This document shows positions 23,181 through 42,476 of a DNA stretch of 58,544 bases, piece by piece (positions within the stretch are counted from its first letter, which is position 1; every line of letters begins with the position of its first letter). Where the stretch lies: positions 140,622 to 199,165 of the forward strand of contig JAAVDF010000017.1 in NCBI GenBank assembly GCA_014801945.1, in the 5' to 3' direction. Below the pieces are notes generated by a model. It made no database searches. It was given only the letters and a program-made list of their open reading frames with translations, and was not told where the DNA came from. The DNA is from Bacteroides sp. (GTDB lineage Bacteria; Bacteroidota; Bacteroidia; Bacteroidales; Muribaculaceae). The position numbers were made by a program, and so were the translations under genes.

Positions 23181-23250
23181 CAATTATTCCGCTTAAAGGC
23201 GATTAAATTAATATTACCGGTCGATGATTGACCGGCTAATTATGAAATTT

Positions 23251-23292
23251 GCCGGCCGCGATCCTGTCAGGGTTCGTGGCCGGCTGCTTTTG
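23251..23292 (+). terminator. Intrinsic terminator after the beta-barrel gene
   Basis: Stem GCCGGCCGCGA.../...TCGTGGCCGGC (23251-23285) of about 14 pairs with two G:U pairs and one mismatch, followed by TGCTTTTG. Confidence 0.78.
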
Positions 23293-23438
23293 TTGCGGTT
23301 TGCAGACATGTCAGGGATGAATTTGATAATATTTGGGATGAATATGACTGTCTGTCTGCGGAAAAATGACTCACTTTGCAAAGTCGTTTAACCGAACATT
23401 CTTCTGCTGCACACATAGTATGAATTTTATCAAGTAGG

Positions 23439-23488
23439 GAGGCTGTGTCAGAATGGATAAATTCCGAGTTGATTTTGACACAGCGTTC
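23439..23488. repeat. Imperfect inverted repeat with GGCTGTGTCA arms
   Basis: GAGGCTGTGTCAGAAT (23439-23454) faces GATTTTGACACAGCG (23471-23485). Same arm core as the element at 7178-7258, suggesting a dispersed family. Confidence 0.6.
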
Positions 23489-23706
23489 TGAAATCTGAAA
23501 GCCGAAGTCGGATCTGGGTCGCGGACGATGTGACATGCGCTCATTGTCTCGTCTCAGATCCGTTGTTTTCTATCCTTTGACGGGACAATGGGCAGCATGG
23601 ATGGGTAGATGGAAAAAGTAACTGTCCGGCAGAAGCAAACGGCATTATTTGGTAATCTAAATGACAGTGTGTCAAATTTTAAATTTTATTAAAACAGTTG
23701 GCTAAA

Positions 23707-23742
23707 TTTTTGAGTGATTTCGGAAAAATTTCAGTATATTTG
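23707..23742 (+). promoter_or_regulatory. Promoter of the nuo-atp-nuo array
   Basis: TTTTTG (23707-23712), 22 bp, TATATTTG (23735-23742). Both elements match the Bacteroidota consensus. The start near 23749 leaves a leader of about 90 nt before nuoA. It is the only consensus promoter I find in front of any gene of the 17.6-kb array. Confidence 0.75.
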
Positions 23743-23840
23743 CACTGCGTTTCGTGCCCTCCGCGTCATTATGGTTGCGGTAAGGCTTGTAACTCCATGA
23801 TACACAGATTCTTGGAAACAAAATCAGTATTTATCACTAT

Positions 23841-24209
23841 ATGATAGCATTGGCAATTCAAAATGCGACTTTGGCCGTGGTAGCCCTCCTGACAGGTGTG
23901 GCTCTCGTGGCTATTGCTCTTTGGCTTGCGGGACTCATCTCACCCCGCTCATTCAATCCCCAGAAAGGCGAAGCATACGAGTGCGGTATCCCCACCCGTG
24001 GCGAGTCTATGGCTCAGTTCAAGGTAGGCTACTATCTTTTTGCCATCCTCTTCCTGATGTTTGACGTCGAGACCGTGTTTCTCTATCCTTGGGCGGTGCG
24101 TGTGCACGAGCTTGGGACTTCCGGCCTCACAGCCATAGCAGTCTTTTTTGGAATCATAGTGCTGGGTCTCGTTTATGCCTGGCGGAAAGGAGCTCTTGAA
24201 TGGAAGTAA
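23841..24209 (+). CDS. nuoA: Complex I subunit NuoA
   Basis: 122 residues with three membrane helices (about 9-35, 66-86, 95-115). The loop SFNPQKGEAYECGIPTRGES (about 38-57), with the conserved YECG, is the NuoA signature and sits near the quinone cavity. FLMFDVETVFLYPWA (about 72-86) is also diagnostic. Part of the proton-pumping membrane arm. Its end overlaps the start of nuoB by 10 bp, pointing to coupled translation. First gene of the composite array. Confidence 0.95.
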   Translation: MIALAIQNATLAVVALLTGVALVAIALWLAGLISPRSFNPQKGEAYECGIPTRGESMAQFKVGYYLFAILFLMFDVETVFLYPWAVRVHELGTSGLTAIAVFFGIIVLGLVYAWRKGALEWK

Positions 24210-24808
24210 CCACCAAAGGCATGCCGTATGAGGCATGGAAGGACAATGAATACATCGAAAAGCTCGTGAAGGAGCTTCAGGACAGCGGCGTCAATGTTGT
24301 CGTCGGCTCTCTTGACAAACTTATCAACTGGGGGCGTTCCAACTCTATCTGGCCGCTCACCTTCGCCACCAGTTGTTGCGGCATCGAATTTGTGTCGCTT
24401 GGAGCAGCGCGTTATGACATGGCGCGTTTCGGCTGGGAAGTTGCCCGCGCCTCGCCCCGTCAGGCCGACTTCATGATGGTGGCCGGTACGATTGTCCACC
24501 GTATGGTGCCTGTGTTCCGCCGTCTCTATGATCAGCTTGCCGAACCCAAATACGTGATTGCCTGCGGTAGCTGCGCTATTTCCGGTGGTCCTTTCAAGAA
24601 GAGCTACCATGTGGCTATGGGTATCGAGGATATCGTCCCTGTGGATGTCTTTGTCCCCGGCTGTCCTCCCCGTCCCGAAGCCATGATCTACGGTATCATG
24701 CAGCTCTCCCGCAAAATCAAGGTCGAGAAGTTCTTCGGCGGTGTCAACCGTCAGGAAAAGCAGGAGGATTTCCTCAAGGCTCATCCCGTCCCCGGCGTAA
24801 ACGATTGA
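24200..24808 (+). CDS. nuoB: Complex I subunit NuoB (N2 cluster)
   Basis: 202 residues. The four ligands of the terminal 4Fe-4S cluster N2 are seen: tandem Cys59-Cys60 in TSCCGIE, Cys125 in GSCAISGG and Cys155 in PGCPPRPE. N2 passes electrons to quinone at the junction of peripheral and membrane arms. A short polar C-terminal extension (RQEKQEDFLKAHPVPGVND) follows the core. Overlaps nuoA. Confidence 0.96.
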   Translation: MEVTTKGMPYEAWKDNEYIEKLVKELQDSGVNVVVGSLDKLINWGRSNSIWPLTFATSCCGIEFVSLGAARYDMARFGWEVARASPRQADFMMVAGTIVHRMVPVFRRLYDQLAEPKYVIACGSCAISGGPFKKSYHVAMGIEDIVPVDVFVPGCPPRPEAMIYGIMQLSRKIKVEKFFGGVNRQEKQEDFLKAHPVPGVND

Positions 24809-24874
24809 TCCTCGTCCGCGCCTCCGTCAAAGAATCAGAATCAAGAATAACGTTCATACACCTTATTATATATT

Positions 24875-26509
24875 ATGTCCAACATCCGGGAAAAGATTTC
24901 AACCGTGTTGCCTGAGGCCGTCATCGAGGATGGCGATATCATGCAGGTGACCGTCCCCGACGCAAAGTGGCATGACTTCGCCAAGACTCTCCGCGACGAC
25001 AGCGATCTCGCGTTTGACTTCCTCGTGACCATCGTCGGTATGGACTGGAAGGAGAACGGCATGGGCTGTATCTACTATCTCACATCCACACGCCACAACA
25101 CCCATATTTCAGTCAAGGTGATGGCTACCGGCGACCGTGAGATGCCTCTCATTCATTCCATCCATGACCTCTGGGCCATCGCTACTATCTTCGAGCGCGA
25201 GGTCTATGATTACTTCGGCATTATCTTCATCAATAATCCCGATATGCGCCGCCTGTTCCTCAACATCGACTGGAAGGGCTATCCCTTGCGCAAGGACTAT
25301 AACGATGATCCCAACCTCAACCCCGTCTCCATCGAGAACGAACGTCAGACAGACTTCACTGATGTCTGGACCGAAAATGCAGAGGGTAAGGTCGTAAAGC
25401 ACGAACGCCGCATCTTCGCTCCGGATGATTTCGTGGTCAACATCGGCCCGCAGCACCCCGCCACCCACGGTGTGCTCCGTTTCCGTACCGCTATCGACGG
25501 TGAGATCATCAAGAAAATCGATATCTATTTAGGCTACATCCACCGAGGTGTCGAGAAAATCTGCGAAGGACTCACTTATCCGCAGACTCTCCATTTCATG
25601 GACCGTCTCGACTATTTCTCCGCCCATCCTTATCACCACTGCCTCTGTATGCTCATCGAGGAGGCGGCCGGCATTCAGATCTCGCGCCGTGCGCAGGTGA
25701 TCCGTGTGCTGATGGACGAGCTTTCGCGTATCGCATCCCACTGTCTGTTCATCGGTACTTACTGTATGGACCTCGGTGCGACCACCATGCTCTTCTACAC
25801 ACTCCGTGTCCGCGAACAGATCCTCGACATCATGGAGAAGACCTGTGGCGCGCGCATGACGTTCAACTATGACTGCATCGGCGGTGTCATGCAGGATCTC
25901 CATCCCGATTTCGTGAAGGATGTCCATGCTCTTCTTGACGTGATCCCCGCCAATATCAAGGAATACAACAAAATCTTCACCGGCAACGTCATCGCCAAGA
26001 ACCGTATGGAAAATATCGGTGTCCTTAGCCGTCACGATGCCATCTCTTGGGCAGTAACCGGTCCTAACGGCCGTGGTTCAGGCTGGGCTTGCGACGTCCG
26101 CAAGTGTGCCCCCTACAGTATCTATCCCGAACTCGAATTTGACGAGGTGATCCGCGAAGAGGGTGACTCGATGGCCCGTTTCAAAGTCCGCATGGACGAG
26201 ATGGTACAGAGTGCCCGCATCATCGCGCAGCTCATCGACAATATTCCTGAAGGCGAGTATTGCGTCAAGGTTCCCAAGGTGCTGAAGCTCCCCGTAGGCC
26301 ACTGGTTCAAGATGGTGGAAGGCTGTCGCGGCACATTCGGTATCTATCTCGAAAGCGACGGCACTGTCAATCCTTACCGTCTGAAGATCGCGCCGCCGTG
26401 TCTTCCTGCCGCTGCCGTGGTTGACCACATTACTGAAGGCCAGAAGATCGCCGACCTCATTACCATCGGAGGTTCGCTTGACTACATTGTCCCCGACATT
26501 GACCGTTAA
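24875..26509 (+). CDS. nuoC: Complex I fused subunit NuoCD
   Basis: 544 residues. Residues 1-170 are the 30-kDa (NuoC) domain, with YFGIIFINNPDMRRLFLNIDWKGYPLRKDY around 111-140. The rest is the 49-kDa (NuoD) domain: NIGPQHPATHGVLRF (about 189-203), YLGYIHRGVEKICEG and the C-terminal IAPPCLPAAAVVDHITEGQ. NuoD shapes the quinone pocket. C-D fusion is common in this and other phyla. No Cys ligands for a NiFe site, so this is a respiratory subunit and not a hydrogenase large subunit. Confidence 0.96.
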   Translation: MSNIREKISTVLPEAVIEDGDIMQVTVPDAKWHDFAKTLRDDSDLAFDFLVTIVGMDWKENGMGCIYYLTSTRHNTHISVKVMATGDREMPLIHSIHDLWAIATIFEREVYDYFGIIFINNPDMRRLFLNIDWKGYPLRKDYNDDPNLNPVSIENERQTDFTDVWTENAEGKVVKHERRIFAPDDFVVNIGPQHPATHGVLRFRTAIDGEIIKKIDIYLGYIHRGVEKICEGLTYPQTLHFMDRLDYFSAHPYHHCLCMLIEEAAGIQISRRAQVIRVLMDELSRIASHCLFIGTYCMDLGATTMLFYTLRVREQILDIMEKTCGARMTFNYDCIGGVMQDLHPDFVKDVHALLDVIPANIKEYNKIFTGNVIAKNRMENIGVLSRHDAISWAVTGPNGRGSGWACDVRKCAPYSIYPELEFDEVIREEGDSMARFKVRMDEMVQSARIIAQLIDNIPEGEYCVKVPKVLKLPVGHWFKMVEGCRGTFGIYLESDGTVNPYRLKIAPPCLPAAAVVDHITEGQKIADLITIGGSLDYIVPDIDR

Positions 26510-26593
26510 GCCGATCATTTCCCCGTTAAGCAATGGATTTTTTCCAAGAGTGAACTAACACAGAGAGAATAAAAAGTAATTTCAATAGACATT

Positions 26594-27670
26594 ATGCAAG
26601 ACCTATCAGTCGGAACCGCATGGCTTCACTCCTTCCTCACCGGATACATCCCTGAATGGGCGGCAGTCACTTTCGAGTGTCTGCTCATCGGAGTCGGCCT
26701 GCTGCTGCTCTATGCAGTGCTCGCACTGTTCTATATCCTCTTCGAGCGTAAAGTATGTGCCTACTTCCAGTGTCGTCTCGGCCCTAACCGTGTAGGCCCT
26801 TGGGGCTTGATGCAGAGTATCGCCGATATGTTCAAGATTCTCATCAAGGAGCTTATCTCGCTGAACCATATCGACAAATTCCTCTTCGCCCTCGCGCCTT
26901 ATCTCGTCATCATTGCCTCGATGCTCGCGTTTGCGGTGCTTCCGTGGGGCAACGGCCTTCAGATCATCGACTTCAATGTCGGCATCTTCTTCCTGCTTGC
27001 CGTATCGTCCATCGGCGTGCTCGGTATCCTGTTGGCCGGATGGTCATCCAACAATAAGTTCACCCTTATCGGTGCGCTCCGTTCAGGTGCCCAGATGATC
27101 AGCTACGAACTTTCGATGGGTCTCTGCGTCGTTACCATGGTCGTCATGGCCGGAACGATGTCAGTCGGCGGTATCGTTGAAGCCCAGAATCATCTCTGGT
27201 TCATCTTCTCAGGCCATATCCCTGCCATAATTGCCTTCGTCATCTTCATGATCGCAGGTACGGCCGAGACCAACCGTGGTCCGTTTGACCTTCCTGAAGC
27301 CGAGAGCGAGCTTACCGCCGGTTACCACACTGAGTATTCCGGTATCCACTTCGGTTTCTTCTACCTCGCCGAGTACCTCAACCTCTTCATCGTTTCAGGT
27401 GTGGCCGCGCTCCTCTTCTTCGGAGGCTGGATGCCCCTCCACATCCCCGGTCTTGATGCGTTCAACCATATCATGGACTATATCCCCTCGTTCATCTGGT
27501 TCATCGGCAAGGCTGTCGCCCTCTCGTTCATCATCATCTGGTTCAAGTGGACATTCCCCCGTCTGCGCATCGACCAGCTTCTGACCCTCGAATGGAAGTA
27601 TCTCCTTCCCATCAACCTCTTCAACCTCGTGCTTATGGTTCTTATCGTGACCTATAAGCTCTATCTCTAA
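26594..27670 (+). CDS. nuoH: Complex I subunit NuoH
   Basis: 358 residues and about eight to nine helices. Diagnostic segments: [24 protein letters not shown] region (about 46-69), [20 protein letters not shown] (about 221-240) with charged residues lining the quinone channel, and [15 protein letters not shown]. It links the quinone site to the proton-pumping subunits. Followed directly by atpD, not by nuoI, after a 60-80 bp gap with no terminator or promoter. Confidence 0.96.
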
Positions 27671-27711
27671 GCTAATTTCCTCAAAATTATAACTCCAATC
27701 CCCCCAAGTAG

Positions 27712-29256
<1,545 letters not shown>

Positions 29257-29315
29257 TTCGTCAGGTCTCTCAGAATTCCAAATAAAGTCTCTCACACTCA
29301 TCAGCAGACACAGAA

Positions 29316-29552
29316 ATGACACTCAAAATCATATCGGCCGAAGACATAGTCTTTCAGGGTGAAGTAAAAGTCGTGCATCTTCCCGGTGCAATGGGTGCTT
29401 TCACCGTTCTCCCCGGCCACGCAGCTCTGATCTCAACCCTTACGCCCGGCGACATCCGCTACACTGCCGCTGACGGTGAGGAACACAAGGTTGGCGTTGA
29501 AGGCGGAATCGTCGATGTCGATTCAAATATTGTGTCGGTCTGCATTTACTAA
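29316..29552 (+). CDS. atpC: F1 ATP synthase epsilon subunit, short form
   Basis: 78 residues, only the N-terminal beta-sandwich: VHLPGAMGAFTVLPGHAALIS (about 21-41) and GGIVDVDSNIVSV near the end. The C-terminal helical hairpin, which inhibits ATP hydrolysis in many bacteria (epsilon about 130-140 residues), is absent. Short epsilon subunits are known in Bacteroidota and Chlorobi. The protein couples the rotor shaft to the c ring. Confidence 0.93.
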   Translation: MTLKIISAEDIVFQGEVKVVHLPGAMGAFTVLPGHAALISTLTPGDIRYTAADGEEHKVGVEGGIVDVDSNIVSVCIY

Positions 29553-29556
29553 CTCT

Positions 29557-30729
29557 ATGGTGACGATGAAAAGAAACATATTCACGACTCTTATCTTGGC
29601 TGTCATAGCCCTTCTGCTCCCCGTCGTGGCGTCTGCCGAAACTGATCATGCGGCTGATGCTAAGGAGGAGGGCAGCGGCAAGGTCGATGCTCAAGGTATT
29701 ATCTTCGAGCACCTCGGTGACCGTTATGGTTGGGAGATGCCCTTCAATCACCATAAGTCAATTCCGCTCCCCATCATCGTATGGGGATCTGACGGTCTGC
29801 ATGTATTCTCCTCATCGCGCGTCGAGCATGGAGCTATCTATCGTGACGGCAATGCCGAGTTCAAGGTCGCAGGCAAGGAGAGTCCCTATAAGGGTAAGGT
29901 CGTAGAGATCATCGATGGTACTGAAGTGAAGCCTGTCGTCGATATCTCCATCACTAAGAATGTCTGCGGACTCTTCATCTCCGTCCTCGTCGTCATCTGG
30001 TGCATCCTGTCTGTGGCCAAGTGGCATCGCACTCAGGGCATGAAAGGCCCGCGTAAGATGACCGGTGCTATTGAATTTCTGATTCTCTTTATCTATGACG
30101 GAGTCATCAAACCTACCCTCAAGGATAAAGCCAACAAATTTGCACCCTATCTGCTGACCGTGTTCTTCTTCATCCTTGTGATGAACCTTCTCGGACTCAT
30201 CGTCGTGTTCCCCGGAGGTGCGAACCTCACCGGCAACATCGCGGTGACTCTCGTACTTGCGATACTCACTTTCCTTATCACCAATATATTCGCCACGAAG
30301 CATTATTGGAAGGAAATCTTTAATCCGGATGTGCCTTGGTGGCTCAAATGGCCCATCCCCATCATGCCTCTCATCGAGGTCTTCGGTATTTTCACCAAAC
30401 CGGCTGCGCTTACGGTCCGTCTGTTTGCGAATATGATGGGTGGCCACATGATCGTCATAGTTCTGACCCTCCTTATCTTCATTTTTGCAATCATGGGCCC
30501 TGCGGTTACAGGGGCGACAGCCGTGGTCAGCATTATTTTCTCGGTGTTCATGCTTCTGATCGATGTCCTCGTGAGCTTCATTCAGGCATACGTGTTCACC
30601 ATGCTCTCCACCCTCTTCATAGCCCTAGGTCAGGAGGACGGTCATGGCGAGCATAAGAAAGATGACAGCCATTCAGCCTCAGAAACTCCCGCCGTGACTG
30701 ATAAGACTCCGGCAACAAATCCCGCATAA
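29557..30729 (+). CDS. atpB: Fo ATP synthase a subunit with long secreted N-terminal extension
   Basis: 390 residues, over 100 more than the E. coli protein. Start at 29557 or three codons later (29566). Residues about 4-28 are a signal peptide (ALLLPVVASAET), followed by a soluble periplasmic stretch of roughly 110 residues, then the classical membrane part. The essential Arg is in KPAALTVRLFANMMGGH, and the last helices carry SFIQAYVFTMLSTLFIALGQE. The C-terminus is an extra polar tail (HGEHKKDDSHSASETPA). It forms the half channels through which protons reach the c ring. Confidence 0.95.
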   Translation: MVTMKRNIFTTLILAVIALLLPVVASAETDHAADAKEEGSGKVDAQGIIFEHLGDRYGWEMPFNHHKSIPLPIIVWGSDGLHVFSSSRVEHGAIYRDGNAEFKVAGKESPYKGKVVEIIDGTEVKPVVDISITKNVCGLFISVLVVIWCILSVAKWHRTQGMKGPRKMTGAIEFLILFIYDGVIKPTLKDKANKFAPYLLTVFFFILVMNLLGLIVVFPGGANLTGNIAVTLVLAILTFLITNIFATKHYWKEIFNPDVPWWLKWPIPIMPLIEVFGIFTKPAALTVRLFANMMGGHMIVIVLTLLIFIFAIMGPAVTGATAVVSIIFSVFMLLIDVLVSFIQAYVFTMLSTLFIALGQEDGHGEHKKDDSHSASETPAVTDKTPATNPA

Positions 30730-30771
30730 CTTAAAAAACTATCAAAATAAACCATTAAATCTCCCGCAATT

Positions 30772-31020
30772 ATGTTAGCAATGATTTTAGCAGCTATCGA
30801 AGGAACACTCGGCATCGGCGTATGTATCGGTGCAGCAATCGCAGCAATTGGTGCCGGTATCGGTATCGGTAAGATCGGTGGCTCAGCCATGGAAGCAATT
30901 GCCCGTCAGCCCGAATCAACCGGCGATATCCGCAGTAACATGATCGTAATCGCCGCCCTTATCGAAGGTGTGGCTCTCTTTGCTGTCATCGTTTGTATCC
31001 TCGCAATGTTTGTGGGCTAA
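30772..31020 (+). CDS. atpE: Fo ATP synthase c subunit
   Basis: 82 residues forming a two-helix hairpin. The first helix is glycine-rich (GAGIGIGKIGG), the loop holds the invariant ARQPE, and the ion-binding Glu is in AALIEGVALFAVIV. The Gln of helix 1 and the Ser/Thr after the Glu that define sodium-binding rings are missing, so proton coupling is likely. Several copies form the rotor ring. Confidence 0.96.
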   Translation: MLAMILAAIEGTLGIGVCIGAAIAAIGAGIGIGKIGGSAMEAIARQPESTGDIRSNMIVIAALIEGVALFAVIVCILAMFVG

Positions 31021-31044
31021 TCCAACCTTCAACTATTTGAAAGT

Positions 31045-31542
31045 ATGGAACTTTTCACGCCTGATTTCGGTCTGGTATTCTGGATGTTCGTGTCATTCGC
31101 CATCCTCTTCTTCGTTCTCTGGAAGTGGGGCTGGCCGGTGATCATGAAAGGAGTGTCTGATCGAGCCGACCTCATCGACAAAGGTGTGGAGTATGCTCAA
31201 AATGCCAAACAACAGCTTGACCATGCCCGCGAAGAGGCGGATAAATACATAGCCGACGCACGTCGCCAGCAGGCCGACATGCTGCGTGAGGCCGACAAGA
31301 TGAAGACTCAGATCATCGAGGAAGCCCGCTCTGCAGCACAGTCAGAGGCAAAGAAGGTGATGGACGCGGCTAAAGTGTCTATCGAACAGGAACGCAAACA
31401 AGCCGAGCAGCAGTTCCGCAACGAAGTCTCATCATTCGCTCTCGATATCGCACAGAAAGTCGTGCGCAATCAGATGAAGGACGAGAAAGCTCAGGAACAG
31501 CTCGTCAGCTCCCTGCTCGACGAGATGGAAAAACAGAACTGA
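31045..31542 (+). CDS. atpF: Fo ATP synthase b subunit
   Basis: 165 residues. One N-terminal helix (about 8-27, LVFWMFVSFAILFFVLWKWG) followed by a long charged, right-handed coiled-coil stalk rich in Ala, Gln, Lys and Glu. It forms the peripheral stator that holds F1 still. Normal length. Followed by a 146-bp gap that contains a strong hairpin. Confidence 0.95.
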   Translation: MELFTPDFGLVFWMFVSFAILFFVLWKWGWPVIMKGVSDRADLIDKGVEYAQNAKQQLDHAREEADKYIADARRQQADMLREADKMKTQIIEEARSAAQSEAKKVMDAAKVSIEQERKQAEQQFRNEVSSFALDIAQKVVRNQMKDEKAQEQLVSSLLDEMEKQN

Positions 31543-31555
31543 TGTCGCGGGGAAC

Positions 31556-31589
31556 ACCGGTGTCGGACACATTGTGTAACGACACCGGT
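31556..31589 (+). other. Strong hairpin between atpF and atpH
   Basis: ACCGGTGTCG (31556-31565) pairs perfectly with CGACACCGGT (31580-31589), and ACAC/GTGT pair inside. There is no T run, so it is more likely an RNA-processing or stability element, or a partial attenuator, than a full terminator. A weaker TCCGG/CCGGA fold follows at about 31599-31625. Confidence 0.72.
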
Positions 31590-31688
31590 ACTCCCGACTC
31601 CGGATTACAGGTCTCCGGCTTCCGGATCCTGACTATAATTAACTCTATCAAAGATTTACTCATCCTCTAAGGCTCTCATCTCCACGCA

Positions 31689-32234
31689 ATGAACCAAGGT
31701 CTCATCCCCAGCCGCTACGCGAAGGCCCTTTTCGAGTTCGCCTCTGAAAAGGGTGCTGATGCCCGCATTTATGAGCTTATGCACGGGCTTGAAAGCTCCT
31801 TTGTCACCGAGCCCTCGCTCCAGCAGGCCGTGGCCAATCCTTTTATCCCCGCGACCGACAAGGTGAAACTTCTCACCACTGCCGCCGGCGCATCGGATAA
31901 GGATGAAGTCTATGCTCGTTTCCTCCAGCTTCTGGCCGAGAACAATCGCCTCGACGCTGCGCGCGACATAGCTCTTGCCTACATGAAAATATATCGTAGC
32001 GAGCACCACATCTACCTTGTGACCGTCACATCGGCCGCTCCAATGGGTGCAGCTGAGGAGGATCGTCTGAAATCGCTCATCGAGCGTCATCTCAACGGCG
32101 GCACGATGGAATATCATCATCGCGTCGATCCCAATCTCATCGGTGGCTTCACAGTGACGATTGACAACGAGAAGCTTGACGCTTCTGTCGCTGATGAACT
32201 CAAACAATTGCGTATTAAACTTTTAAGCAACTAA
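31689..32234 (+). CDS. atpH: F1 ATP synthase delta subunit
   Basis: 181 residues. Start [19 protein letters not shown] (about 4-22) and the C-terminal [29 protein letters not shown] region (about 143-171) are the two conserved parts of delta/OSCP. It ties the b stalk to the top of F1. Confidence 0.94.
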
Positions 32235-32256
32235 CCATTTTCACCCAGATATAACA

Positions 32257-33828
32257 ATGATTAATCCAAGCGAGATTTCTCAGGTATTAAAACAGCAGCT
32301 GGAGAATATCAACTCCAAGGTCTCATTTGAGGAAACCGGAGTTGTCCTCGAAGTCGGCGACGGTGTGGCCCGTGTCTATGGCCTCGACAATGTCTGCGCC
32401 AACGAGCTTGTTGAATTTGAAAACGGAGTGAAAGGTGTGGCCCTCAACCTTGAGGAGAGTAATGTGGGTGTCATCCTGCTCAACAATGTTAATACCGTGA
32501 CTGAAAACATGACCGTCAAGCGCACGGGCGAGATCGCCTCGATCAAAGTGGGCGACGGTGTTTTCGGACGCGTCATAAACGTACTCGGCGAACCCATCGA
32601 CGGTCGCGGTCCCATTCAGGGCGAACTCCTCCACATGCCTCTTGAGCGTAAGGCTCCGGGCGTTATCTTCCGTCAGCCGGTCAAGCAGCCTCTGCAGACC
32701 GGTCTCAAGGCAGTCGATTCAATGGTGCCCATAGGTCGTGGTCAGCGTGAGCTCATCATCGGTGACCGTCAGATCGGCAAGACTGCCATCGCCATCGATA
32801 CCATCATCAATCAGCGGGCCAATTTTGAAGCCGGCAAGCCCGTTTATTGCATCTATGTGGCCATCGGCCAGAAGGCTTCATCAGTGGCAGCCATCGTGGA
32901 GACCCTCCGTCAGCACGGTGCGCTTGACTATACAGTCGTCGTAGCGGCTACAGCCGCCGACTCTGCTTCGATGCGTTACTACGCACCCTTTGCAGGAGTA
33001 GCGATCGGCGAATTCATCCGTGACACCGGCCGCGACGCCCTCATCGTCTATGATGACCTCTCGAAGCAGGCTGTCGCTTACCGCGAGATCTCGCTCGTGC
33101 TCAAGCGTCCTTCCGGCCGTGAGGCATATCCCGGCGATATTTTCTATCTCCACAGCCGTCTGCTCGAACGTGCGGCAAAGATTATCGACAACCAGCAGGT
33201 GGCCGAGAACATGAACGACCTTCCCGCCTCGCTCAAAGGCAAGGTGAAAGGCGGTGGTTCGCTCACCGCGCTCCCAATCATCGAAACTCAGGCAGGTGAC
33301 GTGTCGGCCTACATCCCCACAAACGTAATCTCAATCACCGACGGTCAGATCTTCCTTGAGACCGCACTCTTCAACCGCGGTATCCGTCCTGCCATCAACG
33401 TAGGTATCTCCGTATCCCGTGTGGGTGGTAATGCACAGATCAAGTCGATGAAGAAAGTGGCCGGTACACTCAAGATTGATCAGGCACAGTTCCGCGAGCT
33501 TGAATCGTTCACCAAGTTCGGTGGCGATATCGACCCCGTGACCGCACGCACAATTGATAAAGGCCGTAAGAACGAACGCCTTCTCATCCAGCCACAGTAC
33601 TCGCCGATGAAGGTCGAGGACGAGGTTGCCGTGATCTTCTGCGGAACCAAGGGTCTGCTTGAGAATGTGCCCCTCGATAAGGTGGCTGAGTTTGAAAAGA
33701 ACTTCCTCCAGCTCGTCAACACCAAGTATCCTGAAGTCATGGAGTCCATCCGTGCCGGCAAGCTTGATGACGATGTTGCTGCCAAGCTCGCAGAGGCCGC
33801 CACACAGATCTCAGGATCATATAAATAA
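32257..33828 (+). CDS. atpA: F1 ATP synthase alpha subunit
   Basis: 523 residues. Walker A is GDRQIGKT, Walker B region is [13 protein letters not shown], followed by the alpha signature [24 protein letters not shown], here split over about 284-308. It carries the non-catalytic nucleotide sites and alternates with beta. 22 bp after atpH. A 98-bp gap with a hairpin separates it from atpG. Confidence 0.97.
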
Positions 33829-33845
33829 GAAATCATGGAGAGATG

Positions 33846-33872
33846 GACGCACTTCCGCTGCGGAAGTGCGTC
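33846..33872 (+). other. Strong hairpin between atpA and atpG
   Basis: GACGCACTTCCG, loop CTG, CGGAAGTGCGTC: 12 perfect pairs with a three-base loop, starting 17 bp after the atpA stop codon. No T run. It may set relative levels of atpA and atpG-nuoI RNA. Confidence 0.75.
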
Positions 33873-33926
33873 GCAACTCCGAACAGAATAAACGAATCAA
33901 ATCACTGACAGTCATTTACCTCAATC

Positions 33927-34814
33927 ATGGCTACACTTCGTGAACTTAAAGGACGAATCGGCTCAGTAGCTTCCAGTGAGAAAATCACCGGAGCTATGAA
34001 GATGATCTCCTCGGCCAAAATGCACCGCGCCGAGTCGGATCTGCGTCGCCTTCTTCCATTCCGTCAGCAGATCGAGAATATCATCGGCAATCTTCTTTCG
34101 GCTGATGCCGAGTTCTCTTCCCCCCTCACAGAGGAACGCGAAGTGAAGTCGATAGCCGTCGTGGTCTTTGGTTCGGATGACGGCCTTTGCGGTGCTTACA
34201 ATATCAATATCTTCAAGGAGCTCCTTGCCACCGTCCGTTCCTATCGGGAGCGTTTCGGCGAGAATGTGAAGATAGCCGTTATCCCCGTAGGATCAAAGAT
34301 GGCCAAGGCCACTTCGCGCATGGCTCTCCCCGGAGTGAGTGTTGAGCAGCAGACCGATGTGGATTCCAAATCCTCCGGTGATGCTGTCAAAGCTTTCACC
34401 CGCCGTCTGGAAGACCGCTTCCTCGCGGCTGACTTTGACCGTATCGATCTCCTCTACATGAATTTCCAGTCAGTGAGCCGGCAGCGTCCCAAATGTGACC
34501 AGCTCCTGCCCGTCAGCTCCGATGCTTTCAAGAACGAAGATGTCAAGGCCATCTGCCGTCCGTATATCTTCGAGCCTGACGCGGCCACGATCTTCGTTTC
34601 AGTTCTCCCGATGTTCCTCCTCGCCGTGGTGCAGGAAGTCTTCACCGAGAACCGTGCTTCAGAGCAGGCCGCCCGAATAATGGCCATGCAGAGCGCGAAC
34701 GACAATGCCAAAAAACTCCTTGAGCAACTCCAGCTGGAGTTCAACAAACTGCGACAGCAGAGCATCACGACCGAACTTCTCGACATCGTCGGCGGTCAGA
34801 TCAAAAACGATTGA
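33927..34814 (+). CDS. atpG: F1 ATP synthase gamma subunit
   Basis: 295 residues. N-terminal coiled coil ATLRELKGRIGSVASSEKIT, GSDDGLCGAYNINIFKEL in the central Rossmann-like part, and C-terminal RAARIMAMQSANDNAKKLL-type helix (about 246-270) with NKLRQQSITTELLDIVGG. It is the rotating shaft. Last gene of the atp block; nuoI follows after 59 bp without terminator or promoter. Confidence 0.95.
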   Translation: MATLRELKGRIGSVASSEKITGAMKMISSAKMHRAESDLRRLLPFRQQIENIIGNLLSADAEFSSPLTEEREVKSIAVVVFGSDDGLCGAYNINIFKELLATVRSYRERFGENVKIAVIPVGSKMAKATSRMALPGVSVEQQTDVDSKSSGDAVKAFTRRLEDRFLAADFDRIDLLYMNFQSVSRQRPKCDQLLPVSSDAFKNEDVKAICRPYIFEPDAATIFVSVLPMFLLAVVQEVFTENRASEQAARIMAMQSANDNAKKLLEQLQLEFNKLRQQSITTELLDIVGGQIKND

Positions 34815-34873
34815 TACCGTCCACGCAAAGTCAAATCTACGAATTTATATAGCACAACAGATAATAAACCGAC

Positions 34874-35623
34874 ATGGGAAGTGTAAAAGAGTATTTCTCA
34901 AATCTTGGCTCCGGCATTGCAAGCCTTCTTAAAGGTATGCAGGTGACCGGTAAGGAATTTGTCACCCCCAAAATCACTGAAGAGTATCCTGACAACCGCG
35001 ACAATCTCCCCGTTGCCGACCGCTTCAGGGCTGTCCTGACTCTCAAGTATGACGATCAGGGCAACCACAAGTGTATCGCCTGCGGAACTTGTGAGCGCGT
35101 ATGTCCCAACTCTACTATCAACCTTGACATAAAGACTGTCGAGACTTGGGACGGCAAGAAAAAAAAGAAACTTGACAAGTACATGTATGACCTCGGAAGC
35201 TGTACGTTCTGTCAGCTTTGTGTCACAAACTGTCCGACGGACGCACTCGAATTCAGCAACGATTTCGAGCAGGCAGTCTTCACGCGCAGCAAACTCGTCA
35301 AGAAACTCAACTATCTTCCTGAAAAGGAGGAGCCGCAACCCACTCCTGAGGAAATTGCCCGCATGAAGGCCGAGAAGGAGGCCAAGATCGCAGCCGCCAA
35401 GGCAGCTGCCGAGGCTAAGAAGGCCGCTGCAGCCGGAGCCGCTCCGAAAGTTGCAGAAGCCGCTCCCGCCCCTAAGGCCGCTGAACCGAATGATGCCGCT
35501 GCCAAGGCTCTCGCAGCCGCAGCCGGCGATCCGGTGAAGGAAGCCAAGATCCGTGCAGCACTCGAAAAAGCTGCTGTCCTCAAGGCTCAGCGTGAGGCCG
35601 GTAAGACTCCCGACGCCAACTAA
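34874..35623 (+). CDS. nuoI: Complex I subunit NuoI with long Ala/Lys-rich C-terminal tail
   Basis: 249 residues. Two 4Fe-4S ferredoxin motifs: Cys67, 70, 73, 77 (KCIACGTCERVCP) and Cys110, 113, 116, 120 (CTFCQLCVTNCP), for clusters N6a and N6b. The core ends near 150. Residues 151-249 form a tail of Ala, Lys, Glu and Pro, ending in DPVKEAKIRAALEKAAVLKA. That last piece resembles the repeated tail of RnfC-type proteins by eye. Ordinary NuoI is about 150-180 residues. With NuoE/F/G missing, NuoI is the outermost iron-sulfur subunit here and the likely electron entry point. Confidence 0.93.
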   Translation: MGSVKEYFSNLGSGIASLLKGMQVTGKEFVTPKITEEYPDNRDNLPVADRFRAVLTLKYDDQGNHKCIACGTCERVCPNSTINLDIKTVETWDGKKKKKLDKYMYDLGSCTFCQLCVTNCPTDALEFSNDFEQAVFTRSKLVKKLNYLPEKEEPQPTPEEIARMKAEKEAKIAAAKAAAEAKKAAAAGAAPKVAEAAPAPKAAEPNDAAAKALAAAAGDPVKEAKIRAALEKAAVLKAQREAGKTPDAN

Positions 35624-35649
35624 CTCTAAATTAATTACTATCACAGTAT

Positions 35650-36165
35650 ATGGAATCAGTAGGAAGTACAATTTGTTACTGGATAATCGCGCTTGCGATT
35701 GTCATCTTCTCGGTACTGACTGTCACCACGCGCAAGATCCTGCGTGCGGCCACATATCTGCTATTCGTGCTCTTTGCCACTGCCGCCCTTTATTTCAAGC
35801 TTGACTATGAGTTTCTCGGCGCTGTGCAGATTGCTGTCTATGCCGGCGGTATTGTGGTCCTCTTCGTGTTTGCGATCCTGCTCACGACTCACCCCGGTGA
35901 CAACAGTCAGCAGTTAACCTCAAGGAAAGAAATCCTCGGCATCATCGGTGCGGTGGCTACTGCCGGAGCATGCGGCTGGGCTCTCTGCTCACGTTGCGCC
36001 GACCTCTTCACATCGCTCCCCGCAATGGCCAATCCGACCATGCAGCGCATCGGTCAGGCAATGCTGGGTACGGGCTATGAGCAGTATCTCCTTCCCTTCG
36101 AGGCTGTCAGTGTGTTGTTACTCGCATGTATAATCGGTGGCGTAGTAATCGCCCGTAAACGCTAA
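35650..36165 (+). CDS. nuoJ: Complex I subunit NuoJ
   Basis: 171 residues with five helices. YAGGIVVLFVFAILL (about 63-77) carries the family's pi-bulge helix, and the preceding EFLGAVQIAVY is conserved. Part of the antiporter-linked membrane arm. Confidence 0.94.
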   Translation: MESVGSTICYWIIALAIVIFSVLTVTTRKILRAATYLLFVLFATAALYFKLDYEFLGAVQIAVYAGGIVVLFVFAILLTTHPGDNSQQLTSRKEILGIIGAVATAGACGWALCSRCADLFTSLPAMANPTMQRIGQAMLGTGYEQYLLPFEAVSVLLLACIIGGVVIARKR

Positions 36166-36179
36166 TCACAACTATCATC

Positions 36180-36491
36180 ATGGATATTACATTGATCTGG
36201 TATCTCGTCCCGGCCCTCGTGATGTTCTGCTGTGGCGTCTATGGCTTCCTGACACGCCGCAACATGATCGCCATGCTTATCTCCCTTGAGCTTATGCTCA
36301 ACGGGGTCGATATCAACTTCGTGGTTTTCAACCGCTATCTTTTCCCCACGTCGATGGAAGGATGGATGTTCACTCTCTTCGGCATCGCTATTGCCGCCGC
36401 CGAGACCGCGCTCGCCATCGCTATCATCGTCAACCTCTTCAGGGTCAGCAAAAATATTGACGTTCGTGACGCAACAAAAATGAAAAATTAA
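36180..36491 (+). CDS. nuoK: Complex I subunit NuoK
   Basis: 103 residues, three helices, MrpC-like. The conserved ISLELMLNGVDINFV (about 37-51) holds a membrane Glu needed for pumping; a second Glu lies in the last helix (AAAETALAIAI). Tight spacing to nuoJ (14 bp) and nuoL (9 bp). Confidence 0.95.
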   Translation: MDITLIWYLVPALVMFCCGVYGFLTRRNMIAMLISLELMLNGVDINFVVFNRYLFPTSMEGWMFTLFGIAIAAAETALAIAIIVNLFRVSKNIDVRDATKMKN

Positions 36492-36500
36492 TCACGCCCT

Positions 36501-38447
36501 ATGGATATTACAATACCTATTCTTATATTGGCCATCCCCCTCTTCATGTTCCTCCTTCTGGGACTGGCGGGAGTTAAGATGAGCCACAAACTCGCCGGCA
36601 TCCTTGGTTCGCTCGGCATGGGAACCGTGTTGATCTTGTCCTATTACACGGCGTTCACCTATTATTTCTCCGGAAATCCTGAATTTATCGACGGCACGAA
36701 CCGTCTGCAGTACGTGGTGTTCAACCAGACTTGGCTGCAGTTCACTCCCAATCTTGCCATCAAGCTCGGTTTCCTTCTCGACCCGATTTCAGCCCTGATG
36801 CTCATCGTCATCCCGACGATCTCGTTCATGGTCCACATCTACTCGCTCGGCTATATGGAAGGTGAGAAAGGCTTCCAGCGTTACTACGCTTTCCTTTCGC
36901 TCTTCAGCTTCTCGATGCTCGGCCTCGTTGTCGCTACCAACATTTTCCAGATGTATATCTTCTGGGAGCTTGTGGGTGCATCATCGTTCCTCCTCATCGG
37001 TTTCTTCTACACCCTTCCCTCAGCCATCTCGGCTTGTAAGAAAGCATTCATCGTAACCCGCTTCGCCGACCTCGGCTTCCTCATCGGTATCCTCGTGCTG
37101 TCGTTCTACACCCAGCAGCTCGACTTCCTCCCGATGACTCAGAATCCGCAGGGCGTACTCGCAAGCTTCGGGGGTGCCTCCTTCCTCGGTGCTTCTGCCC
37201 TTACTTGGGCTCTCGTGCTCATCTTCACCGGTGGTATGGGTAAGTCGGCCATGCTCCCTCTCCACATCTGGCTTCCCGACGCGATGGAAGGCCCGACCCC
37301 CGTATCGGCTCTCATCCACGCCGCTACGATGGTTGTCGCAGGTGTCTATCTCGTTGCACGCCTCTTCCCCCTCTACATGCTTGAGGATGCAGCCCTGATG
37401 TTTGTCACCGTTGTCGGTGCGGCCACTGCCTTCTATGCCGCTATGGTTGCCTGCACGCAGATCGACATCAAGCGTATCCTCGCTTTCTCTACCATCTCGC
37501 AGATCGCGTTCATGATGGTATCGCTCGGTGTTGCTTCACGTGACAATGTCGCCATCCACGAAGGTCTCGGTTACATGGCATCCATGTTCCACCTCTTCAC
37601 TCACGCGATGTTCAAGGCCCTCCTGTTCCTCGGTGCAGGTTCGCTCATCCACGCAGTTCACTCGAACAACTACACCGCTATGGGTGGTCTCCGCAAATAC
37701 ATGCCCATCACTCATATCACCTTCCTCATCGGCTGTCTCGCCATCGCCGGTATCCCTCCCTTCGCCGGTTTCTGGTCCAAGGACGAGATCCTCGTGGCAT
37801 GTTTCGCCAACCATACCTTCTGGGGTGTCTGGATGACGATTATCGCCGGTATGACCGCCTTCTACATGTTCCGTATGTACTACCTCGTGTTCTGGTGGAA
37901 CAATCCTGACTATGCCAAGGAGCACCACGGTCATCTCCCCCACGATCCGGGCGCAGCCATGACATTCCCTCTGATTTTCCTTGCGATCGTCTCGACTGTC
38001 TGCGGTCTCATTCCTTTCGGAGAGTTCGTGACATTTGACGGACATGAGTATCACATCCATCTGAACTATGGCGTTGCCGGTCTCTCTGTCGCAGTGGCTT
38101 GCTGCGGTATCTTCTTTGCAAGATGGCTCTATATCAAGGAGAATGATCGTCCCCGTCGCATGGCTGATTCGTGCCGCTGGCTCTGGACTGCTGCTCTCCA
38201 CCGCTTCTACTGGGATGAGATCTATCTCTTTGTCACCCGCCGCATCATCTTCGACGGTATCTGTAAGCCCATCGCATGGTTCGACCGTCACATTATCGAT
38301 GGAACTATGAATGGTCTCGCCATCGTGACCAACAAGGCTTCCGTAGCCATCAAGGGATTCCAGAGCGGCAAGGTGCAGATGTATATCTGGTGGTATCTCA
38401 TGGGTGCCGTCGTTCTCGGCCTCATAGTCGCAGTGTGTGTCCTCTGA
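36501..38447 (+). CDS. nuoL: Complex I antiporter-like subunit NuoL
   Basis: 648 residues, about 14 core helices plus a C-terminal extension that fits the lateral helix. Key pieces: FWELVGASSFLLIGFFY (helix 5 Glu), GKSAMLPLHIWLPDAMEGPTPVSALIHAATMV (helix 7-8 region, Lys and His residues, spanning about 249-280) and FSTISQIAFMMVSLG. Distal proton pump. Starts with the same four codons as nuoK (MDIT). Confidence 0.96.
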   Translation: MDITIPILILAIPLFMFLLLGLAGVKMSHKLAGILGSLGMGTVLILSYYTAFTYYFSGNPEFIDGTNRLQYVVFNQTWLQFTPNLAIKLGFLLDPISALMLIVIPTISFMVHIYSLGYMEGEKGFQRYYAFLSLFSFSMLGLVVATNIFQMYIFWELVGASSFLLIGFFYTLPSAISACKKAFIVTRFADLGFLIGILVLSFYTQQLDFLPMTQNPQGVLASFGGASFLGASALTWALVLIFTGGMGKSAMLPLHIWLPDAMEGPTPVSALIHAATMVVAGVYLVARLFPLYMLEDAALMFVTVVGAATAFYAAMVACTQIDIKRILAFSTISQIAFMMVSLGVASRDNVAIHEGLGYMASMFHLFTHAMFKALLFLGAGSLIHAVHSNNYTAMGGLRKYMPITHITFLIGCLAIAGIPPFAGFWSKDEILVACFANHTFWGVWMTIIAGMTAFYMFRMYYLVFWWNNPDYAKEHHGHLPHDPGAAMTFPLIFLAIVSTVCGLIPFGEFVTFDGHEYHIHLNYGVAGLSVAVACCGIFFARWLYIKENDRPRRMADSCRWLWTAALHRFYWDEIYLFVTRRIIFDGICKPIAWFDRHIIDGTMNGLAIVTNKASVAIKGFQSGKVQMYIWWYLMGAVVLGLIVAVCVL

Positions 38448-38480
38448 ATCTAATAACGTGCTGAAATTTATAGTAACGAT

Positions 38481-39986
38481 ATGTTTTCCAATATATTAAT
38501 TTACTTCGTGGTGATCCCCTTGGTCATGATGCTGGGGCTCGCCCTCTGCCGGAACATCAAGCAGATCCGTGCAGTGGCCGTCACGGGTTCAGTCGCTCTG
38601 ACAGCCCTCTCCGTATGGCTTCTTGTTGACTATCTCGCGCTTCGTGCCGCCGGAGCTGACGCCCCAATGCTTTGGGTTGACTCTTGGCAGTGGTTTGCTC
38701 CCCTCAACATCAATCTTGCCGTCGGAGTCGATGGTATCTCGATCGCCATGCTCATTCTTACCGGTATCATTCTCATCACCGGTAGCTTCGCATCGTGGGA
38801 GATTCCCCAGCCCAAGGAATTTTTCCTCTGGCTTATCCTTCTTTCCACCGGTGTGTATGGTTTCTTTATCTCGATCGACCTTTTCACCATGTTCATGTTC
38901 TATGAGGTCGCACTTATCCCGATGTACCTTCTCATCGGCGTGTGGGGTAGCGGCAACAAGAACTATTCGGCCATGAAGCTCACCCTTATGCTCATGGGTG
39001 GTTCAGCCTTCCTCATGCTCGGTCTCATCGGTATCTACTACCATTCGGCTCCCGAAGGTCAGCCCCTCACTTGGAACATCCTTCAGATCGCCGAATATGA
39101 CGCCATCAGCCACGGCTGGCAGAAATTCCTCTTCCCGATGACTTTCGTCGGCTTCGGTGTCCTCGGTGCTATGTTCCCCTTCCACACATGGTCACCCGAC
39201 GGTCACGCATCAGCCCCCACGGCTGTCTCGATGCTCCACGCAGGTGTGCTCATGAAACTCGGAGGCTACGGCTGCTTCCGTGTGGCTATCTACCTCATGC
39301 CCCACGCCGCTCACGAACTTGCATGGATCTTCCTTATCCTTACAGGTATCTCGGTTGTCTATGGTGCGTTCAGCGCATGTGTGCAGAATGACCTCAAGTA
39401 CATCAACGCATACTCATCGGTGTCACACTGCGGTCTGGTGCTCTTCGCAATCCTCATGCTCAACACCACAGCAATGACCGGTGCGATCATGCAGATGCTT
39501 TCTCACGGTCTCATGACAGCCCTCTTCTTTGCTCTCATCGGTATGATCTACGGTCGTACACACACACGCGACATCCGCGAGATGGGTGGTATGATGCAGA
39601 TCCTCCCTTACCTCTCCGTATGCTACGTCATCGCAGGTATGGCCTCGCTCGGTCTTCCCGGTCTCTCCGGCTTTGTGGCCGAAATGACCATCTTCGTCGG
39701 ATCGTTCGAGCATACTGACCTCTTCCACCGCATCTTCGTCATCGTGGCCTGCAGCTCCATCGTCACCACTGCGGTCTATATCCTCCGCGTTGTCGGTAAG
39801 CTCCTCTACGGTCCGGTCTATGACGAGCATCATCTCACACTCACCGATGCCAAGTGGTGGGAACGCCTCTCGACCGCTACACTCATCATCTGTGTGGCTT
39901 GCATCGGTTGCTTCCCCAACTTCTTTGCCGATCTTATCAAGTTCACTTTCAGTCCCGCAATCTTCACTGTAATCGGTCTGAACTAA
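38481..39986 (+). CDS. nuoM: Complex I antiporter-like subunit NuoM
   Basis: 501 residues, 14 helices. FMFYEVALIPMYLLIGVWG (about 138-156) contains the essential helix 5 Glu, FPFHTWSPDGHASAPTAVSM (about 234-253) the loop and helix 7-8 region, and AYSSVSHCGLVLFAIL the later Mrp-like motif. Central proton pump of the membrane arm. Confidence 0.96.
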   Translation: MFSNILIYFVVIPLVMMLGLALCRNIKQIRAVAVTGSVALTALSVWLLVDYLALRAAGADAPMLWVDSWQWFAPLNINLAVGVDGISIAMLILTGIILITGSFASWEIPQPKEFFLWLILLSTGVYGFFISIDLFTMFMFYEVALIPMYLLIGVWGSGNKNYSAMKLTLMLMGGSAFLMLGLIGIYYHSAPEGQPLTWNILQIAEYDAISHGWQKFLFPMTFVGFGVLGAMFPFHTWSPDGHASAPTAVSMLHAGVLMKLGGYGCFRVAIYLMPHAAHELAWIFLILTGISVVYGAFSACVQNDLKYINAYSSVSHCGLVLFAILMLNTTAMTGAIMQMLSHGLMTALFFALIGMIYGRTHTRDIREMGGMMQILPYLSVCYVIAGMASLGLPGLSGFVAEMTIFVGSFEHTDLFHRIFVIVACSSIVTTAVYILRVVGKLLYGPVYDEHHLTLTDAKWWERLSTATLIICVACIGCFPNFFADLIKFTFSPAIFTVIGLN

Positions 39987-40002
39987 TCACGGATTAATAG
40001 CA

Positions 40003-41445
40003 ATGGATTACTCACAGTTTTTAGCACTCAAGCAGGAAATAGGATTGTTAATCGTATTCCTATTAGTCTTTCTCTACGATACCTTCTGCTCCCCGAAGGC
40101 CGGTAAGAATGTCCCCGGCATCGCAATTATCTTCTTCGGTCTCCTGACCCTCGCCGGTTTCGGGCAGGCATGTGCCCCAGCTACTTCCGCATTCGCAGGC
40201 ATGTATGTCACGACACCTACGATCGTTGCGATCAAGAACATCCTCAATGTCGGTGTGTTCATCGTCCTCATCCAGTCCATCAAATGGGCCAATTCGGAAT
40301 TCATCTCCGTTCGTCGCGGTGAATTTTACGAACTGATCCTGCTGACGCTCCTCGGCATGTATCTGATGATCTCAAGCCGCCACTTCCTGATGTTCATCAT
40401 CGGACTTGAGACTGCATCGCTCCCCCTCTGCGCCCTCGTTGCCTTTGACAAGAAGCGTTATGAGAGCCACGAAGCGGCCATCAAGTATGTACTTACCGCC
40501 GTATTCTCCTCGGCCATCCTTCTGATGGGTCTCTCGTTTGTCTATGGTCTTTCCGGCACTCTCTATTACAGTGGCATCGCCGCTGCCCTCTGCGGCAACA
40601 TGGGTGTGATGCTTGCCGTGGCCCTCGCATTCGTGATGGCTGGTTTCGGATTCAAGATCTCGCTTGTTCCCTTCCACCTCTGGACTGCCGACGTGTATCA
40701 GGGCGCACCTACATCGGTCACCTCTTACCTGTCAGTCATCTCCAAGGGTTCAGCCGCCTTCGCTTTCCTCGTGGTTCTCACTCAGGTGTTCGGTTCAGTC
40801 TATGAGGCTGCATGGGAATGGATGCTCTACGCACTCATCATCCTCACCATCACCATCGGTAACCTCTTTGCGATGCGTCAGACCAACATGAAACGCTTCC
40901 TCGCATTCTCGTCAATCTCACAGGCCGGCTACATCATGCTTGCCATCGTCGGCGACAATGCCATGGGTGTTTCAGCCCTCATGTTCTACACGCTTGTCTA
41001 TATCTTCTCCAACCTCGCCGCCTTCGGTGTCATCGGAGCTATCGAGAATGCAACCGGCAAGCTTGACATGACTGACTACAACGGTCTCTACAAGACAAAT
41101 CCCCGTCTCGCCTTCACGATGATGCTTGCCATGTTCTCACTCGCAGGTATTCCCCCCTTCGCAGGATTCTTCAGCAAGTTCTTCGTGTTCACCTCGGCTC
41201 TCAACGGCACCAACTCGGCTGCGCTCTATGTCCTCGTGCTCATCGCCCTCATCAACACCATCATCTCCCTCTATTATTATCTCCTTGTTGTGAAGGCAAT
41301 GTTCATCAATGACAGCGAAAATCCCATCGCCACATTCCGTTCAGCATGCAGCGAACGTCTCGGCATGTGGATCTGCGTCGCCGGCATCATCGGCCTCGGT
41401 ATCGTAAGTTACGTCTATAATTATCTCCTTACGGTCGTAGCCTGA
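40003..41445 (+). CDS. nuoN: Complex I antiporter-like subunit NuoN
   Basis: 480 residues, about 14 helices. Typical segments: IIGLETASLPLCALVAFDK (about 128-146, helix 5 Glu), VPFHLWTADVYQGAPTSVTSYLSVISKG (about 222-249) and FSSISQAGYIMLAIVG. Last gene of the array; a perfect 15-bp hairpin follows 46 bp after the stop codon. Confidence 0.96.
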   Translation: MDYSQFLALKQEIGLLIVFLLVFLYDTFCSPKAGKNVPGIAIIFFGLLTLAGFGQACAPATSAFAGMYVTTPTIVAIKNILNVGVFIVLIQSIKWANSEFISVRRGEFYELILLTLLGMYLMISSRHFLMFIIGLETASLPLCALVAFDKKRYESHEAAIKYVLTAVFSSAILLMGLSFVYGLSGTLYYSGIAAALCGNMGVMLAVALAFVMAGFGFKISLVPFHLWTADVYQGAPTSVTSYLSVISKGSAAFAFLVVLTQVFGSVYEAAWEWMLYALIILTITIGNLFAMRQTNMKRFLAFSSISQAGYIMLAIVGDNAMGVSALMFYTLVYIFSNLAAFGVIGAIENATGKLDMTDYNGLYKTNPRLAFTMMLAMFSLAGIPPFAGFFSKFFVFTSALNGTNSAALYVLVLIALINTIISLYYYLLVVKAMFINDSENPIATFRSACSERLGMWICVAGIIGLGIVSYVYNYLLTVVA

Positions 41446-41491
41446 TCAGCCGCATTGATCCGTATATTGAAAAACATTTCAATACCTTTCA

Positions 41492-41535
41492 ACAATCTCC
41501 GGCTGCGAGGCGTTTTGCTTGCAGCCGGAGATTGT
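41492..41535 (+). terminator. Hairpin ending the nuo-atp-nuo array
   Basis: ACAATCTCCGGCTGC (41492-41506) pairs perfectly with 41521-41535 around a 14-nt loop. The T run is poor, so termination may need help, but it is the only large hairpin between nuoN and murI. Confidence 0.78.
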
Positions 41536-41593
41536 CATAAAATCCCCTCGCGTTTCCACACCCATACTTATCATTAAATAATCTTTTCCGCCT

Positions 41594-42424: not shown

Positions 42425-42476
42425 CACGTATCTGTCGTTGAAACTAAACAGGGGAGACAATCCCAGAATTAAATCT

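Follow-up and report, generated by a model that had tools for sequence, protein, structure and literature searches.

An ATP synthase operon nested within a headless complex I operon in Muribaculaceae and neighbouring Bacteroidales families

The window analysed here, a stretch of 58,544 nucleotides from a Muribaculaceae genome (contig JAAVDF010000017.1; assembly of 2.6 Mb in 42 contigs, 79% complete), carries a complex I operon in which nuoH and nuoI are separated by a block of eight atp genes. In all, 18 genes, every one on the plus strand, run from 23841 to 41445 in the order nuoA-B-CD-H, atpD-C-B-E-F-H-A-G, nuoI-J-K-L-M-N (Table 1). The nesting extends through the family and into six others of the order, seems to have arisen once, and is likeliest to form a single transcription unit of 17.6 kb, predicted from sequence motifs to reach from a promoter before nuoA to a hairpin after nuoN.

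All 18 products were named by NCBIfam profiles; NuoA, NuoI and NuoJ scored below the curated cut-offs of their models, with the same subunits still being the best matches. Open reading frames and profile names bear out the gene order, the single strand and the gaps below 150 bases given by the initial annotation (the widest, between atpF and atpH, is 146 bases), and its statement that the atp block sits exactly between nuoH and nuoI with no gene harmed also holds. The complex I operon comprises nuoA, B, CD and H–N, with nuoC and nuoD fused, and nuoE, nuoF and nuoG are absent from the profile-named genes of the locus; the complex here is without NADH-oxidising subunits. The atp genes follow the order beta-epsilon-a-c-b-delta-alpha-gamma with a short epsilon, which is the Bacteroidota beta-first kind of F-type operon. 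The next gene after nuoN is murI. On the minus strand of the window, two adjoining frames at 19930–22382 resemble, by eye, the biotin genes bioF and bioA.

Table 1 Features of the nested nuo–atp locus (window coordinates)
Feature	Position	Strand	Basis
Promoter, Bacteroidota-type, TTTG-N22-TATATTTG	23709..23742	+	Pattern match, 98 bases before nuoA ATG
nuoA	23841..24209	+	ORF and NCBIfam (below curated cut-off)
nuoB	24200..24808	+	ORF and NCBIfam
nuoCD, single fused gene	24875..26509	+	ORF and NCBIfam
nuoH	26594..27670	+	ORF and NCBIfam
atpD (beta)	27730..29256	+	ORF and NCBIfam; start may be internal ATG at 27751
atpC (epsilon), 78 aa	29316..29552	+	ORF and NCBIfam
atpB (a)	29563..30729	+	ORF and NCBIfam; longer GTG frame starts at 29476
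atpE (c)	30772..31020	+	ORF and NCBIfam, c-subunit alignment
atpF (b)	31045..31542	+	ORF and NCBIfam
atpH (delta)	31689..32234	+	ORF and NCBIfam
atpA (alpha)	32257..33828	+	ORF and NCBIfam
atpG (gamma)	33927..34814	+	ORF and NCBIfam
nuoI	34874..35623	+	ORF and NCBIfam (below curated cut-off)
nuoJ	35650..36165	+	ORF and NCBIfam (below curated cut-off)
nuoK	36180..36491	+	ORF and NCBIfam
nuoL	36501..38447	+	ORF and NCBIfam
nuoM	38481..39986	+	ORF and NCBIfam
nuoN	40003..41445	+	ORF and NCBIfam
Stem-loop, 18 bp, terminator-like	41492..41535	+	Folding; hairpin of -15 kcal/mol or below after nuoN in 30/30 loci

Each of the two component operons is of a kind already known. According to the accessible parts of PMC7002350 and PMC6560451, Bacteroides fragilis and Prevotella have a headless 11-subunit complex I with the same nuoA, B, CD and H–N and without nuoE, F and G; by contrast with the locus described here, the B. 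fragilis genes form an unbroken run of locus tags (PMC7002350). Similarly, the accessible part of PMC5709465 gives the stand-alone atp operon of Bacteroides and Prevotella the same gene order as here, whereas in the window the atp genes lie inside nuo and the promoter motif before atpD has been lost, and a short epsilon subunit is reported for Bacteroidetes (PMC4154653, available portion). The accessible parts of these four papers do not mention nesting, and in line with the initial annotation, which knew of no account of it, no earlier description was found in the literature searched, in which subscription journals are thinly covered.

Among 149 whole Muribaculaceae genomes from 30 genera, NuoH was found in 147 and AtpD in 144; G039 and G141 have neither nuoH nor atpD, which reflects either joint loss or unassembled sequence. 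The two genes are adjacent on the same strand in 140 of the 147 NuoH-bearing genomes (one second NuoH fragment of G134 was left out of the count). In five of the remaining seven the contig extends into the start of atpD, and in two it stops inside nuoH, so that atpD directly follows nuoH in all 145 informative genomes, that is, those whose contig continues past nuoH. The full nested order from nuoA to nuoN was recovered in 20 of 20 loci fetched whole. A scan of named genomes gave 246 NuoH relatives, of which the best 80 were examined as loci: atpD follows nuoH in 76 of these 80, and in the other four (L071, L084, L089 and L107) the sequence ends 0–190 bases past nuoH. Among the same best 80, nuoI is visible after atpG in 52, L104 and L113 stop no more than 5 bases from atpG, and atpG is not seen in the remaining loci.

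An assembly artefact joining two separate operons was considered, since the window's own genome is fragmented and incomplete and scaffold joins do occur in relatives: L043 breaks at 100 N inside atpF, which is such a join and no true break. The same order is nevertheless present in two type-strain records, Duncaniella muris DSM 103720 (L035) and Paramuribaculum intestinale DSM 100749 (L070), and in G092 (L167), a genome whose sequence is a single contig. Together with the 145 informative genomes, these rule out misassembly, a possibility that the initial annotation had raised; an artefact is extremely improbable. The window's genus is probably Duncaniella, since G090, a genome labelled as belonging to its genus, agrees with the D. 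muris record L035 in nuoH coordinates and identity. Separately, five records titled Paenibacillus, Clostridium, Lachnoclostridium, Alistipes timonensis and Odoribacter (L039, L067, L081, L102 and L111) carry the Muribaculaceae nuo–atp order and are probably mislabelled assemblies; L102 and L111 place inside Muribaculaceae in the complex I tree.

Across the order, 67 of 157 genomes carry NuoH: 3 from the window's own family, 40 fetched as DNA and 24 followed by coordinates. Nine of the 40 fetched loci, all from other families, are nested with the full nuoA-to-nuoN order, and these nested loci fall in six families (f19, f25, f57, f64, f83 and f102). The other 31 are not nested, nuoI being the next recognised gene after nuoH, and in the 24 genomes assessed by coordinates, by eye, nuoH and atpD lie on separate contigs or AtpD gave no match (G234 and G292). 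In the wider phylum, NuoH is present in 115 of 128 genomes; among 29 loci examined atpD was near nuoH in none, and nuoI was found after nuoH in 17. Flanking genes, examined to learn which operon had moved, differ almost everywhere among the compared loci. Several separate atp operons contain a small frame of about 135–140 aa between atpC and atpB (L177:7012-7437, L179:6924-7334, L176 and L180); it is found neither in the nested clade nor in G246, and matches no Pfam family above cut-off.

Ten complex I proteins were concatenated for a tree of 68 rows, built by a quick method; in it all 37 nested rows form one clade with support 100, and nesting requires a single change of state. The two halves of nuo, analysed separately, recover the nested clade with support 98 and 99; their agreement rules out a mosaic origin of the halves. 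The same clade appears in an RpoB tree with support 99 (13 nested rows; two of the 30 genomes, G010 and G230, gave no rpoB match, so that f83 is not represented). A first tree of atp proteins also placed the nested rows together (support 97); it held only nine rows from the family, and five rows (G308, G314, G319, G233 and G273) were less than half filled: besides atpD and atpC they hold just a match to atpA, which is probably atpD cross-matching. A more careful atp tree of 27 chosen genomes, without these five, again united the nested rows (100/100 in the group table, 93/83 on the drawn branch). No reversal to the un-nested state was seen inside the nested clade in the complex I, ATP synthase or RpoB trees. 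Because all three kinds of tree group the nested genomes, nesting seems to have arisen once. The initial annotation's suggestion of a lineage trait is thus strongly supported: in the loci examined, nuoH–atpD adjacency, sought by synteny and mapped on trees, falls in one clade of Bacteroidales.

The atp genes and their hosts do not tell the same story outside this clade. In the careful atp tree, the ATP synthase of the nested clade is closest, on a long branch, to that of NuoH-bearing genomes of family f99 (100/100), whereas complex I trees group f99 (13 of 14 rows) with f21, f56 and f9, as does RpoB with support 86. Constraining the atp tree to unite f99 with f21, f56 and f9 was rejected (p-AU 1e-5). 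This conflict points to an atp history independent of that of nuo, in which the operon would have passed between lineages or two kinds of operon would have been sorted by loss. One genome, G305 (L260, L272), appears from the trees to be another instance of such separate histories, its complex I grouping with f86 and f106 and its atp genes with other f99 genomes.

The NuoH-bearing f99 genomes resemble the window in that their atp proteins are the nearest relatives of the nested block, and differ from it in that nuoH is followed by nuoI and the atp genes are located apart. The two operons are about 11 kb apart and convergent in G246; nuoH and atpD are separated by about 18, 27, 45 and 68 kb in G335, G326, G331 and G324, and lie far apart in G333 and G340. 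Among 39 f99 genomes, all 19 with NuoH have an AtpD related to the nested kind (77–80% identical to that of the window), whereas none of the 20 without NuoH does; 15 of these have an AtpD at 69–70% identity and 5 have no match.

The Bacteroidota promoter consensus consists of TTTG at -33 and TAnnTTTG at -7. This pattern has five matches on both strands of the window (0.55 expected by shuffling), and the one before nuoA is the sole match on the plus strand, as the initial annotation's single consensus promoter would have it; no plus-strand TANNTTTG occurs from this promoter to 48300. The annotated hairpin after nuoN was likewise recovered as an 18-bp stem-loop (148-nt region, -41.4 kcal/mol, z -6.4), while the nuoH–atpD gap of the window folds weakly (-9.2, z -1.8) and no fold was found in the atpG–nuoI gap. 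An E. coli-type scan of 23000–42500 gave 22 promoter-like sites (15.1 expected, sd 4.0) and 14 terminator-like sites (15.4 expected) and reported neither the nuoA promoter nor the nuoN hairpin; being near chance, it was set aside as uninformative for this locus.

Relatives allow the same signals to be counted. With the -7 element sought within 200 bases upstream in distinct upstream sequences, and expectations obtained by first-order resampling that treats related loci as independent, nested loci carry it before nuoA in 76/95 (15.3 expected), before atpD in 5/114 (8.9 expected) and before nuoI in 4/80 (2.7 expected). By contrast, it precedes atpD in 17/22 relatives with separate operons (4.4 expected) and in 18/31 f99 sequences (5.0 expected), the difference at atpD between nested and separate loci giving a Fisher p of 3e-13 with related loci counted as independent. 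Nested loci also exceed expectation at nuoH (27/115, overlapping the start codon), nuoL (18/71) and nuoM (10/38); these matches lie inside coding sequence and are read as putative coding constraint.

Terminator-like hairpins follow nuoN in 28 of 30 nested loci and occur at nuoH–atpD in 0/100 and at atpG–nuoI in 9/78, compared with 0/104 and 2/70 at the control junctions nuoCD–nuoH and atpA–atpG. When the T run is ignored, hairpins of -15 kcal/mol or below are seen, per 30 loci, at nuoN in 30, atpG in 13, atpD in 8, nuoH in 5, nuoI in 2 and nuoCD in 1, and in 16 of 79 atpG–nuoI gaps. Median gaps are 49 bases for nuoH–atpD and 82 bases for atpG–nuoI. The front junction is therefore without a terminator-like signal in the tested loci, and in a minority of them a partial terminator may be present at the rear junction; because of these nine loci, the nuo and atp parts need not be equal in amount everywhere. 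Stem-loops in the atpG–nuoI gaps of L108, L112, L160, L164 and L166 have the sequence ATACCGG in common, within the loop or next to it, and some of them are followed by a T run; they may represent a common RNA or repeat element. Among 350 loci, only L112 and L164 fit a strict pattern for them.

These counts bear on whether the nested genes could still be transcribed apart, with one promoter, at the 3' end of nuoH or beyond it, driving atp, another acting from nuoI onward, and read-through from nuoA minor. The -7 motif is an incomplete marker of operon starts (it precedes nuoA in only 11/22 separate and 2/13 f99 loci), and atpD may therefore have a promoter that looks different; the motif also lies within 300 bases before nuoI in 11/83 nested loci, and the rear-junction hairpins point the same way. 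The near loss of the motif at atpD upon nesting, the bare nuoH–atpD junction and the lack of a plus-strand -7 element within the window's operon all argue against separate transcription, which we judge unlikely. The single unit proposed by the initial annotation thus gains from motifs and hairpins across relatives, and is weakened by the imperfect motif and by the rear-junction hairpins: one strand, short gaps, one promoter and one terminator, as expected of a single operon, are suggested by motif, with exceptions at atpG–nuoI in some relatives.

The account that we favour, and consider probable, joins a single nesting of atp in headless nuo, one promoter-to-hairpin unit and an order kept by dependence. 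A complete F-type atp operon would have entered a headless nuo operon between nuoH and nuoI in one ancestor shared by Muribaculaceae with no fewer than six neighbouring families of Bacteroidales, damaging no gene, and no second F-type operon would have been kept; 12 nested genomes each have one AtpD at E 1e-150. All 18 genes would then be read from the nuoA promoter through to the nuoN hairpin, which would place a proton-linked pump and a presumably proton-type ATP synthase on one switch; translation would adjust their relative dose, as would, in some species, an incomplete stop of transcription beyond atpG. Two things would preserve the order: the atp genes would have come to rely on the nuoA promoter, and headless complex I, beside NQR and Rnf, is a probable supplier of protons to the synthase.

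The same history could instead be a frozen accident, in which atp landed once, lost its promoter and was trapped, common control bringing no benefit. A single origin without reversal fits this, as does the lack of a second nesting in the phylum loci examined, and the loss of the promoter motif would by itself be enough to fix the order. The co-occurrence of NuoH and related AtpD in f99, where the operons are apart, speaks against it and hints at a functional or historical link, within one family of related genomes. Such an accident is quite conceivable, and we lean against it.

In the aligned c subunits Glu is followed by Gly and there is no Ser/Thr ligand, a motif that may mark the proton type; comparison of the different kinds of atp operon showed no switch of ion type. 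Of 16 genomes tested, 15 have NqrA, that of the window among them. The window's genome has two matches to PF01512; the one profiled is RnfC and the second has the same frame length. The RnfC-region matches G000:C5:42703-43143 and G000:C13:16474-16914 (L310, L311), with equal scores and mirrored on two contigs, are perhaps a duplicated assembly stretch. For Prevotella it has been proposed that the sodium gradient made by NQR is exchanged for a proton gradient that drives ATP synthase, with headless complex I as a possible further route (PMC6560451, accessible part); the nested order would fit this proposal, since one switch would govern a complex linked to protons and a synthase presumably of the proton type, and pump and synthase would then be made in step. 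For B. fragilis, the accessible part of PMC7002350 describes a headless complex I that does not contribute to NADH oxidation, a nuo operon poorly expressed in rich medium, and a nuo deletion without a competitive colonisation defect.

A stronger reading, possible but rather doubtful, is an obligate module in which headless complex I would serve this synthase lineage as its dedicated supplier of protons, and in which nuo and atp would therefore be expressed, exchanged and lost together. If so, the module would be fused in Muribaculaceae and their neighbours and still matched one-to-one in f99 though apart. Muribaculaceae could then not silence complex I without silencing ATP synthase and would be committed to the pump, unlike B. 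fragilis with its poor nuo expression in rich medium (PMC7002350, accessible part).

The locus is a clean instance, of single origin, of one large operon nested in another and still nested across several families. In the mouse gut, Muribaculaceae rank among the most abundant bacteria. Should a single promoter drive both operons there, the pump could not be dropped at will, expression data for atp would also be data for nuo, and the role of headless complex I would become testable. The nesting is shared by a large group of gut bacteria spanning several families, in which it probably ties two machines to one switch.
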